Of a DNA stretch of 64,000 nt, positions 22,170 to 54,817 are shown piece after piece. Every line of letters starts with the position of its first letter. Position 1 is the first letter of the stretch. A program made the translations under genes and the position numbers. The stretch spans positions 1-64,000 of the forward strand of contig JASHOU010000010.1 of NCBI GenBank assembly GCA_030038475.1, in the 5' to 3' direction. The stretch comes from Terriglobales bacterium. Its GTDB lineage: Bacteria > Acidobacteriota > Terriglobia > Terriglobales > Acidobacteriaceae. The notes under the pieces were generated by a model, which saw only the letters and a program-made list of their open reading frames with translations, did no database searches and was not told the origin of the DNA.

Positions 22170-22904
22170 CTAGCGTGGGCTGCGCCTCCCTGGGCAGCGA
22201 ATTTCTTCCGGAAAAGTCTCGCCGTCGGCCCAGACTGCGCCGTCTTCAAAATATTCCTTCTTCCAGATCGGCACCGTTTTCTTCAGCCTGTCGATGATCC
22301 AGCGGCAGGCCTGAAACGCAGCGTCCCGGTGCGCGGCCGTCACCACGATCAGAACGCTCGTCTCGCCGATTTCCAAACGTCCCAACCTGTGGACGATCGC
22401 CACTCCGCGCACGCCAAAACGCGCCTGCGCCTCCATCTGCAGCGCTTCCATCTGCTTCAAAGCCATCGCCTCATAGGCTTCGTAATGGAGATAGAGAGTG
22501 CGCCGGCCGCGCGTGTTGTCGCGCACAATGCCTTCGAAAATCACCGCCGCGCCGTCTTCCGGCCGCTTGAGTCGGCCAACAATAGAATCCGTCTCGATCG
22601 GCTCGCGCACGATTCGAACTTCACCCTGCAATTCGCCTTGCTCTGCATTGGCCTTGGCCGACCCGCCACTGACTGGCGGCAACAGCCCAACTTCATCGCC
22701 TTCGTGCAATGCGCGGTCGGCCGTCGAATATTCCCGATTCACTGAAATGGCGAGCGACGGCGCCATCGCTTCCAGCCGCGGAGCCTGTCGCACATAGTAA
22801 AGAATCACGTCGCGCGCTCTCGCGTCGCTCGGCATATCCACAGTATCTGCCGATCGTCCGATGAGATCCTTCACCACACCGAAGAAAAGCACGCCGATCT
22901 TCAT
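22170..22904 (-). CDS. moaX: Fused MoaD-MoaE molybdopterin synthase (MoaX-like)
   Basis: A 244-residue fusion of both molybdopterin synthase subunits. Residues 1-85 are MoaD (MKIGVLFFGVVKDLIGR, ending LLPPVSGG), the sulfur carrier whose Gly-Gly end must be free for thiocarboxylation. Residues about 95-230 are MoaE (VGRLKRPEDGAAVIFEGIVRDNTRGR, YEAYEAMALKQMEAL, VTAAHRDAAFQACRWIIDRLK). In the mycobacterial MoaX fusion, cleavage after the Gly-Gly is needed, and the same is inferred here. Other moa genes are not in the window. It is divergent from the HEAT/PilZ gene. Confidence 0.9.
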   Translation of the reverse strand: MKIGVLFFGVVKDLIGRSADTVDMPSDARARDVILYYVRQAPRLEAMAPSLAISVNREYSTADRALHEGDEVGLLPPVSGGSAKANAEQGELQGEVRIVREPIETDSIVGRLKRPEDGAAVIFEGIVRDNTRGRRTLYLHYEAYEAMALKQMEALQMEAQARFGVRGVAIVHRLGRLEIGETSVLIVVTAAHRDAAFQACRWIIDRLKKTVPIWKKEYFEDGAVWADGETFPEEIRCPGRRSPR

Positions 22905-23104
22905 GGAAATTCGCGCCAAGCTCAACGGTTTGCTGCAAACGTTGCAGCCCTAGTGTAGCGCGGTGGCAACCTAAGGACGATGTCCCTCCGTGTATTCGTG
23001 ATCTATCATTCTCCGTTTTCCCGAATTACCTCCGTAATCGTGCAATAGGTCACCTTCCCGCTTAGTCTTATTACCAACGCCCTATTCCGGAAGAGGAGGC
23101 TGTT

Positions 23105-25837
23105 ATCGCCAACCCGGTTCAAACCGATGCCAGCCGCGGTGCGGCCGCTCGGTCTTTCCTGCACAGCCTCAACATCCTGATCAAGTACACGCGGCTGTAC
23201 GGAGTGACCCACAAGCGCACGGAAGGACAGTTCGGTGTCGCCTGGAATGAACTTCAGCAGGCGCTACCCAAGAGCGGCGACACGGGATTTGTGCTGGGTG
23301 TTGCGGACAACAAACTTCTTCTCGATGGCCTTCCGCTTGAAACCGGGCAGGCGGAGCGCAGTTTCGCACAGTTACTGACAGCGGCCGGACTTTCCAGCAT
23401 CCTCTTCTCGAACAAAGTTACAATCGACGACTTTACCCGCCTGGTGCGCGCTTTCGCCATGGGCGGATCGAAAGCGCAGGACTTTGCGAAACAACTGAAA
23501 GAGACGCTCGGCGATAACAAGGATTCGTCGATCCGTATCAATGAAGTCAAGTTTGTCGCCGCCGATCCTACCACCGGCGAGTATTCCATGGCGGCGCAAC
23601 TGGCCGCGCAAGCGCTTGGCCCGGAAGCCAAGCAGTGGCTCAACGATCCGCAGAAACTCTTGCAGTTGATTGCTGCCGCGCAGGGAGCAAGCGGCGGCGG
23701 TGGCGCAGCGGGCGGCGCGCCGCTCGGTACTGTTCCGAGCATTCCGATCCCCGGAGGCGCCGGTGGCTCCGGCGGTCCCTCCTCTGCGGGAAGCGGGCCT
23801 TCTGGAGGGGCTTGGAGCGGTGGCGTAGTTCCGTTGCAAGAGGAGGAGGTCATTCAGACCATTCGCCTGCTCACGCATTTTGGGCAGACGATGCAGGATC
23901 CCAACGCCTCGCCGGAAAACCTGAAAGTGGAACTCGGAAAAGCGCCCGAAGGGGCCAAAGTCAATCTCGCGGGACTATTGGAAAGTCTGGCCAAGCAAGT
24001 TACCGACAAGCCCGGCGACGGCGGCGACACCCCGCTGCTGATGAAGGCGGCCGAGAGCATGGCCATCAAATTCGCGCTCGAACGCTATCAGCGGGGCGAT
24101 GTGAAAGTCAACGCCGTGCACGAGATGATGGAACACATGAGCCGGCAGATGGACACGCTGCGGCAGATTTTGCGCGTTCAGGAAGACAAGATGTCCAAAG
24201 CCGGCATTCTGGTCGAGTCTCATGCTGACATTCTTGATCGCATGTTCTGGGCGGAGATTCCTGAGGCGGGCAAGAAAAGCGTTCTGCTTTCGGGCGAAGC
24301 GGCCTGTGTGCCGCCACGCAACATTCGCCAGTTCGTCGAAATCCTTTTCGAACGCGATGACAACGAACTCGCCGCCAAGATTCTAGCGAACTACTGTTCC
24401 GGTCTCGACGCCAAAGATGCCGAACCACGCCGCAAGACCGCGATTGGACTGGGTCAACTCGCCGACCTCTATGCCAGCGCGCCCAATGAGGTCATGCCGA
24501 ACACCGTCGCCATGATCGCCGAAAATCTGGCCAAGGAAAACGATAGCGAGATTCAAAGCCTGCTGAGCGCTGCCTTCACCCGTTTCGGACAGGAGGCTTG
24601 CGCCCGCAAGAAATATAAGGCCATCGCAGAATTCTGCGATTCGCTCGAGAGGATTGCGCAGCAGCGGCCCGCTCTTGTGCAGGACCTGCGCTCGCGCGTC
24701 GGCATTGAGAATCGGCTGCCGGAGATGATGGAAGAAGCCATCAATGCGGATGAGGTCTCCGAGGATCTGATCAACGTGCTGCAACAGCTTCCGCGAATTT
24801 CGGTCGAGCACCTTGCCGATCGCTTCTTCCGCGCTCAGAGACGCATGGAATGCGATCGCATTGTGGAACTCGTCGGCGAACTGGGACGGCCGGCGATCGA
24901 CGATCTGCGCGACATGCTGACCTCGGGACAGCCGCGACAGGCGGCCTCATCGGTCGGCCTCTTGAGTCGCTTGTCCGTAACTTCGCTTTTGGAGTTGCTG
25001 CCGCCGCGCATCGGCGATTTCAACCGCTTCTATCAGGACATTATTGTCCGCCAGATCGCTTACGGTGCGGCGCCGGACCGCGGCCGTACTCTGCTCGAAC
25101 TGCTTGAACTGCTCGATTCGCTCATCCTGCCCGAGGCCATCGATGAGATCGGCATGAGCCAGGACCGGAGCGCCAGCGCCAGCCTGATTGCCCTGGCCTC
25201 CGCTGGCGAGGCGCAGCACCGTCCGCCATTCGTGCAACTGAAAGCCATCGAGTCGCTCGGCCGCTTGCGCGAAACCGAAGCCGTTCCCGTGCTGCGCACC
25301 ATCGTCGAATCCAAGAAAATGTTCGGCTACAGCCAGCACCGCGAGTTGAGAATCGCCGCGATTCAGTCCCTTTCCAAGATCGATCCCCGGCATGGCACGC
25401 AGGCTCTAACCGACAGCGGACTGGAGGCGGGCGAACTGACGGTGGCTCCGCTCGATTCTGGTCCGGGATGTCCTTGGGTGCGTCAACGGCGTTACGAACG
25501 CATCATGCTGCCGCGTACGCTTTCTGCGACTCTTTCCAGTTCCTGGGGAAAATCAAACATCGTGATGCGGGAGATGAGCCTCGGCGGCGGCATGGGCACC
25601 CGCAATGACAATCTGCGCGTCGGTTCCGAGGCGCACGTGGAAATCTCGCTGGGCGTGAAAAAGATTCGCGGCGAGGTTCTTCTGCGCCGCGCCCGCGTGA
25701 ATGAAATCGGGTTCGAGTTCGTCAGCATGGACCTCGACAGCCGTTACCGCTTGCGGCGCGTTCTGGTCGAGTCGTTGCAAAAGGTTCCGGACAGCCGTTC
25801 GCCTGACTGGGACGGCGAGCGCAACATCCAGAATTAG
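23105..25837 (+). CDS. Large helical-repeat protein with C-terminal PilZ-like domain (probable ATC start)
   Basis: About 910 residues. No ATG/GTG/TTG exists in frame before GTG 23204, yet upstream codons look coding (AARSFLHSLNILIKYTRLYG). A perfect AGGAGG (23094-23099) lies five bases before ATC 23105, so ATC initiation is proposed. A Gly/Ser/Pro linker (about 195-245) separates an N-terminal helical domain from a long HEAT-like helical region (about 245-780). Residues about 795-890 form a PilZ-like domain: RRYER fits RxxxR and EMSLGGG resembles D/NxSxxG with Glu at the first position. Probably a c-di-GMP-linked scaffold; function unknown. Confidence 0.75.
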   Translation: MANPVQTDASRGAAARSFLHSLNILIKYTRLYGVTHKRTEGQFGVAWNELQQALPKSGDTGFVLGVADNKLLLDGLPLETGQAERSFAQLLTAAGLSSILFSNKVTIDDFTRLVRAFAMGGSKAQDFAKQLKETLGDNKDSSIRINEVKFVAADPTTGEYSMAAQLAAQALGPEAKQWLNDPQKLLQLIAAAQGASGGGGAAGGAPLGTVPSIPIPGGAGGSGGPSSAGSGPSGGAWSGGVVPLQEEEVIQTIRLLTHFGQTMQDPNASPENLKVELGKAPEGAKVNLAGLLESLAKQVTDKPGDGGDTPLLMKAAESMAIKFALERYQRGDVKVNAVHEMMEHMSRQMDTLRQILRVQEDKMSKAGILVESHADILDRMFWAEIPEAGKKSVLLSGEAACVPPRNIRQFVEILFERDDNELAAKILANYCSGLDAKDAEPRRKTAIGLGQLADLYASAPNEVMPNTVAMIAENLAKENDSEIQSLLSAAFTRFGQEACARKKYKAIAEFCDSLERIAQQRPALVQDLRSRVGIENRLPEMMEEAINADEVSEDLINVLQQLPRISVEHLADRFFRAQRRMECDRIVELVGELGRPAIDDLRDMLTSGQPRQAASSVGLLSRLSVTSLLELLPPRIGDFNRFYQDIIVRQIAYGAAPDRGRTLLELLELLDSLILPEAIDEIGMSQDRSASASLIALASAGEAQHRPPFVQLKAIESLGRLRETEAVPVLRTIVESKKMFGYSQHRELRIAAIQSLSKIDPRHGTQALTDSGLEAGELTVAPLDSGPGCPWVRQRRYERIMLPRTLSATLSSSWGKSNIVMREMSLGGGMGTRNDNLRVGSEAHVEISLGVKKIRGEVLLRRARVNEIGFEFVSMDLDSRYRLRRVLVESLQKVPDSRSPDWDGERNIQN

Positions 25838-54741: not shown

Positions 54742-54817
54742 GATTGCGTCTTCTCCTCGGCAGCGAAGTAGAGATTTTATGCTAAACTCGCCAACCTACG
54801 AGCGTTGATTTGTGAAT

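Follow-up and report, generated by a model that had tools for sequence, protein, structure and literature searches.

A conserved ATC/ATT codon at the proposed translation start of a HEAT-repeat/PilZ gene in the Acidobacteriaceae

The HEAT-repeat/PilZ locus

The window, the whole analysed stretch of 64,000 nucleotides, belongs to the draft genome of a soil bacterium (4.46 Mb in 216 contigs). It encodes a HEAT-repeat/PilZ protein, the gene for which is present in a single copy in this genome. Counted from ATC 23105, the open reading frame (ORF) comprised 910 codons plus the stop (23105..25837, plus strand). An in-frame stop (TAG, 23063–23065) lay upstream, after which the frame was open to the stop ending at 25837. 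The earliest in-frame ATG, GTG or TTG was GTG 23204, 33 codons past the ATC. A sequence-only reading had proposed ATC 23105 as a rare initiation codon, since a perfect AGGAGG stands five bases 5' of it and no ATG, GTG or TTG follows for 33 codons. The placement of the AGGAGG, five bases before an ATC in frame with the ORF, was borne out by the sequence and the absence of conventional starts was exact. The features of the locus are listed in Table 1.

Table 1. Features of the HEAT-repeat/PilZ gene and its upstream region in the window.
Feature	Coordinates	Strand	Remarks
Inverted repeat ATTAC-CTCC-GTAAT, operator-like	23025..23038	+	Conserved; putative function; centre at about −43.5 from the predicted transcription start
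TAGTCT, −10-like element	23063..23068	+	Conserved TAnnYT, mostly 24–25 nt after the palindrome
AGGAGG, Shine–Dalgarno sequence	23094..23099	+	Spacing 5 (CTGTT); conserved at nearly the same spacing in relatives
T (U) at −1	23104	+	Possible fourth pair with A37 of the initiator tRNA; T in 84/95 ATC/ATT rows
ATC, proposed translation start codon	23105..23107	+	ATC/ATT in 95/115 family rows; selection pattern
HEAT-repeat/PilZ protein	23105..25837	+	AlphaFold2 model m2438517e9716, mean pLDDT 72.7
First helix, residues 9–32	23129..23200	+	AlphaFold2 model; conserved; entirely upstream of GTG 23204
GTG, first conventional in-frame start, rejected	23204..23206	+	Canonical codon there in 16/95 rows
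HEAT_2, residues 704–770	25214..25414	+	Pfam PF13646, E 4e-7
PilZ domain, residues 794–887	25484..25765	+	Pfam PF07238, E 9e-5, slightly over its cut-off

A search of NCBIfam with the protein returned no family. The best match in a PDB profile search was the PilZ protein PA4608 (E 0.04), and Foldseek returned generic HEAT/armadillo repeats with a query TM below 0.2 and cellulose synthase (BcsA) at an rmsd above 40. PilZ receptors of c-di-GMP are characterized by the motifs RxxxR and (D/N)xSxxG. RxxxR was present as RRYER at residues 795–799 and in 26/26 aligned rows. The second motif read ExSLGG in the window (residues 820–831), with E in 22/26 aligned rows and N only in one (L028). We do not claim c-di-GMP binding, because E replaces D/N in this motif. 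A literature search on PilZ and HEAT in Acidobacteria gave nothing relevant among the matches listed.

The frequency with which a comparable arrangement arises by chance was estimated from the stop-to-stop ORFs of the window, 63 of which had at least 200 codons and 229 at least 100. The scan sought AGGAG, GGAGG or AGGAGG 4–8 bases before an in-frame ATC, ATT or ATA upstream of the first canonical start. Two matches were found among the 63 longer ORFs, at 23105 and, on the minus strand, at 54744; only at 23105 was the distance to the first canonical start greater than one codon. At 54744, AGGAG lies eight bases before an ATC which itself stands one codon before a canonical start. This is probably an ordinary gene start, because the canonical start is only one codon further.

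Start codons of the homologues

Twenty-three of the 24 genomes of the same genus matched the first 192 residues of the protein. All 23 readable starts, the window's own included, were ATC (21) or ATT (2; genomes G019 and G021) and none was canonical, which ruled out the base error at 23105–23107 that the sequence-only reading had considered. In the family, 115/398 genomes had a match. The search listed 124 places, about eight of which were not read (fragments without the N-terminus, contig edges, 23–34% identity); from the 116 that were read, one (L053, ATC) was excluded, leaving 115 counted rows. Their start codons were ATC (70), ATT (25), ATG (12) and GTG (6), with two rows unassigned (both extra copies in genome G402); 14 of these 115 calls, 'unassigned' among the possible outcomes, were made by hand. 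The 95 ATC/ATT rows spanned 25 genera. For the other families of the class, 40 homologues were picked from the matches listed outside the family, for N-terminal coverage and spread of genera. They started with ATG in 39 cases and with GTG in one. Whether homologues begin at this point with ATG had been named as the check on the proposed start. The orthologues carried no ATG at the start codon, apart from one member of the clade (G028), and the distant relatives started near the same point with ATG or GTG.

The 94 ATC/ATT rows with at least 30 nt of upstream sequence were aligned on the start codon. Two codons only occupied this position (69 ATC, 25 ATT), and the flanking codons varied, with 13 kinds at −1 and 30 kinds at +1. 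In 62/94 rows an in-frame stop was found upstream with no canonical codon between it and the ATC/ATT. In 18/94 rows such a stop was within six codons of the ATC/ATT, again with no canonical codon between, so that no other start is possible there; in L116, a single codon separates TGA from ATT. The other 32/94 rows either contained an in-frame ATG, GTG or TTG at a greater distance upstream or lacked a stop within the stretch examined. The rows of genus g31, with TTG six codons upstream, and L123, with GTG two codons upstream, were counted as ATC with less certainty because a canonical codon is close.

Between the ATC and GTG 23204, the residues of the motif ARxFxHSLNILxKYxRLYG were almost invariant and their codons varied. 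The same region was present after the canonical start of the outgroup proteins. GTG 23204 was refuted as the start, since a canonical codon stood at its place in few rows (16/95) and a conserved helix precedes it. The homologues thus did not start at GTG 23204; a start there was the outcome that the sequence-only reading had named as speaking against its proposal.

Named genomes, for the most part the assemblies already counted, were scanned as well and yielded 80 loci labelled Acidobacteriaceae, Terriglobia, Terriglobales, Acidobacteriales or Candidatus Sulfotelmatobacter. All 80 were metagenome-assembled, with no cultured host among them. The neighbouring atpE and atpB were matched in 73 and 72 of the 80 loci, respectively, and the neighbourhood is mostly kept. 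Two other neighbours, moaDE and vwa, were each found in just 18/80 loci. In the window, the former is an ORF on the minus strand (22170–22925), divergent from the HEAT/PilZ gene, that fuses a ThiS/MoaD-like domain (residues 12–88) to MoaE (residues 106–216). As a control gene, atpB started with ATG in 65/66 loci with an aligned N-terminus, which left a general laxity of start codons at these loci unsupported. For atpE, 20/72 loci had no canonical codon near the query start. This gene was uninformative as a control, because the query was a window ORF beginning at a doubtful GTG.

Two genomes carried extra copies of the HEAT/PilZ gene (G402: L131, L137 and L096; G088: L114 and L123). At L052/L054 (G018:C223) and L029 (G006:C70) the gene was matched as two pieces, in different frames or overlapping, and it is therefore taken to be broken or misassembled in these drafts.

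Context and evolution of the ATC/ATT codon

In the ATC/ATT rows, the Shine–Dalgarno (SD) sequence was AGGAG(G), mostly at a spacing of 5, and just GGAG, GAGG or GGGG in a minority. The mean SD pairing energy was −8.8 kcal/mol in 94 ATC/ATT rows versus −6.8 kcal/mol in 18 canonical rows (p = 0.018; since the rows are related, the Fisher and Mann–Whitney values given here overstate independence and serve as a guide only). A T preceded the codon in 84/95 ATC/ATT rows versus 11/58 canonical-start homologues, a signal that may in part be compositional or ancestral, because atpB of the same loci had T at −1 in 34/65. Esposito is said to have described, in 2003, an extended codon–anticodon pairing in which A37 of the initiator tRNA is able to pair with a U at −1, a model which the U found here fits. 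A search for RNA structure sequestering the start was negative, as the stretch 23070–23160 folded no better than shuffles (z 0.27).

The same layout was found at infC. In the same genus, GGAGGAC was followed by three bases ending in T and then by ATC in 18/18 readable loci; L228 is among the infC loci in which ATC, preceded by GGAGG and a T at −1, appears to be the start. By analogy with its ATT/ATC start elsewhere, infC would start with ATC in this genus. As far as the available text of the respective papers goes, infC starts with ATT in E. coli and ATC in Streptomyces (PMC5472188), and with AUA in S. aureus (PMC13009471). Taken together, the strong SD, the U at −1 and the infC layout probably point to a compensated weak initiation of the HEAT/PilZ gene. 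The two genes are alike in having an AUC/AUU start after a strong SD. They differ in that the infC product discriminates against its own start codon, which forms a feedback loop, whereas the HEAT/PilZ protein is not known to take part in initiation.

When the 115 N-terminal regions were placed in a tree, the ATC/ATT rows all fell into one clade of 98 rows (SH-aLRT 99), although the tree was a quick one in which 59/112 inner forks were open. Also in the clade were three ATG rows, one from G028 and two on very long branches, the latter two flagged by the tree program as doubtfully placed. At least three changes between the ATC/ATT and canonical classes were counted on the tree, with these three ATG placements included. 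The row from G028 (L113) was the only well-placed ATG within the clade. It had a weaker SD (GAGG, spacing 3) but retained the upstream palindrome, and is a naturally occurring test case for reversion.

Inside the clade, C and T replaced each other about ten times at the third position of the start codon, with one change to G and none to A (L052 was left out of this analysis). At 19 fourfold columns of the same rows, 96 C/T changes were counted, and C/T gave way to G 132 times and to A 64 times, a spectrum unlike that of the start codon (Fisher p = 1.6e-4, likewise a guide only). Internal isoleucine columns showed the same third-base restriction, as expected from constraint on the residue, and this is what gives the upstream stops their weight in the argument. 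Should translation begin here, methionine is inserted irrespective of the codon, and the pattern then cannot be explained by amino-acid constraint, although it can by codon choice at initiation. The single ATG reversion, together with the departure from the fourfold sites, indicates selection against a canonical return. The best reading of this pattern is that the weak start has been deliberately preserved and actively maintained.

Upstream of the start, 92/94 ATC/ATT rows had TTAC-N4-GTAA, with up to one mismatch tolerated in the arms, and a TAnnYT 18–27 nt further on. The repeat occurred in 1/18 canonical-start rows (L113 of G028, inside the clade) and in 1/94 shuffled stretches. In the window, the first three bases of TAGTCT double as the in-frame stop TAG. 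Transcription is predicted to start near 23075, which would give a leader of about 30 nt. If TAGTCT is the −10 element, such a leader has no room for an upstream ORF, and the repeat would be centred near −43.5, close to the binding position of class II activators.

The 13-mer TTACCTCCGTAAT had one further copy in the genome (G000:C129:90439, L254), located 23 nt before TATTCT and upstream of a GTG-starting ORF that looks like a sensor-kinase/receiver by its translation. The palindrome possibly marks a small regulon. Several genomes of the genus also carried a second recurrent form, TTACNTNNGTAAGTAYC...CTACYAT, which may represent an operator of another type.

Proposed mechanism and comparison with known weak starts

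We consider it likely, on the whole, that the HEAT/PilZ gene has an AUC/AUU start which is discriminated against by IF3, has replaced an ancestral ATG/GTG, is kept by selection and yields few protein molecules. Translation would initiate at ATC 23105, presumably with formyl-methionine, the poor codon–anticodon match being tolerated through the strong, well-spaced SD and the U at −1. Initiation would be inefficient because IF3 is expected to destabilise initiation complexes formed on any start codon but AUG, GUG and UUG. The ancestral ATG/GTG would have given way to AUC/AUU, probably once, close to the root of a clade that comprises at least 25 genera, and selection would then have retained the new codon. 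A short-leader mRNA from the conserved promoter would lead to few protein molecules, with a yield that depends on IF3 and initiation conditions. By analogy with Streptomyces sigR and the staphylococcal cvfC1 and ccpN, ATC 23105 should keep the protein scarce and IF3-sensitive. A counterpoint is the clade member G028, in which ATG is presumably tolerated. The sequence-only reading had linked such starts to tight translational control, and precedent and the third-base pattern would both support this link.

The codon may also be a true AUC/AUU start that survives as a neutral relic, in which case the need for the protein would be low, any weak start would suffice and regulation by IF3 or conditions would not exist. 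The lack of RNA structure at the start and the ATG of L113 would agree with this, but turnover at the third base was restricted to C/T with one exception, whereas purine changes exceeded C/T changes at fourfold sites. A relic would moreover be expected to have drifted back to ATG or to another weak start (GTG, TTG or ATA), none of which was called in the clade except the ATG of G028, and we regard neutrality as improbable. It is far less probable still that translation starts further downstream, at GTG 23204 or a CTG, and that the conserved ATC lies within a 5' untranslated element. Although gene callers would choose GTG 23204, the earliest conventional start that the window offers for this frame, no SD-like stretch precedes it there and a canonical codon is rarely found at its place in the rows. 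Residues 9–32 form a conserved helix in which synonymous changes are free, and the outgroup proteins carry this region after their ATG.

The frame in the window is open for 13 codons upstream of the ATC, as would be needed if the codon were a conserved internal isoleucine and translation entered from an upstream start by extension or a frameshift. This is contradicted by L116, L061, L093 and L110 and, more generally, by the in-frame stops at most six codons before the ATC/ATT in 18/94 rows. Stops adjoining the SD led us to reject both an upstream in-frame start and a frameshift. The upstream stretch is a conserved promoter-like element in which no conserved ORF was seen, and the chance that the codon is internal appears negligible. 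An equally slight chance attaches to a sequencing or assembly error at 23105–23107. The source is a draft of 216 contigs, but 22 further assemblies from this genus, and members of 24 other genera, have ATC/ATT at the same site.

Returning to the selected AUC/AUU start, its combination with the palindromic promoter invites a wider proposal. In theory, regulated transcription together with weak translation is a low-noise design, and the promoter and start could be read in this way, bearing in mind that one clade amounts to one event and not to a correlation. Besides infC, the HEAT/PilZ gene would then be another gene governed by an AUC/AUU start in a large part of the family (at least 25 genera of Terriglobales-type Acidobacteriota). 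An activator-type palindromic promoter and the start with its U at −1 would have been gained in the same clade, and the gene would encode a scarce, low-noise signalling protein reporting the state of translation initiation. We put this forward as a speculative possibility, rather unlikely as it stands.

Weak starts of this kind are already known from infC, pcnB, sigR, cvfC1/ccpN and Borrelia pncA. The pcnB gene of E. coli, which encodes poly(A) polymerase, reportedly has an AUU start, described by Binns and Masters in 2002. Like the HEAT/PilZ gene, it lies outside the translation machinery and is kept scarce by AUU; it differs in protein, lineage and codon mix. In Streptomyces, sigR starts with GTC in 32/34 species and GTT in 2/34, and is repressed by IF3 (Feeney 2017, PMC5472188). 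The resemblance lies in the conserved C/T pair at the third position and the extended SD, with IF3 repression demonstrated for sigR. The differences are that sigR has GUC/GUU rather than AUC/AUU and, in the available text, is described for one genus, the stated reason being sigma/anti-sigma stoichiometry. In S. aureus, cvfC1 (AUU) and ccpN (AUA) reached, in poor medium, about 10% of the yield of an AUG reporter, according to the accessible part of the report (PMC13009471). They too combine a conserved weak start with an extended SD, but concern staphylococci and unrelated proteins and are, as a further difference, backed by ribosome data.

Conserved AUC/AUU starts are very seldom found in genes other than infC. 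In the part of one study available, a single switch from AUG to AUU was counted among 61,358 reconstructed ancestral AUG starts (PMC5622118). A literature search, mostly of papers outside subscription, found no paper joining Acidobacteria with a noncanonical start codon. Searches on AUC/ATC and AUU/ATT start codons returned none for a HEAT/PilZ gene, and the ATC matches were mostly mitochondrial. As far as these searches show, the gene, the phylum and the breadth of conservation are new. With canonical-start outgroups, a spectrum of permitted changes and the U at −1, the maintenance of a weak start becomes testable from comparative data.

Gene calling restricted to ATG, GTG and TTG would truncate the HEAT/PilZ protein, and its first helix would be lost throughout the clade. 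A comparable case is pncA of Borrelia (BBE22), for which, owing to its AUU start, databases give a truncated protein without needed N-terminal residues (PMC13398362). The likeness is in the path from an unconventional start to database truncation; pncA differs in encoding an enzyme, and its abstract claims no wide conservation. Gene callers probably misplace the infC start in the genus studied here as well.
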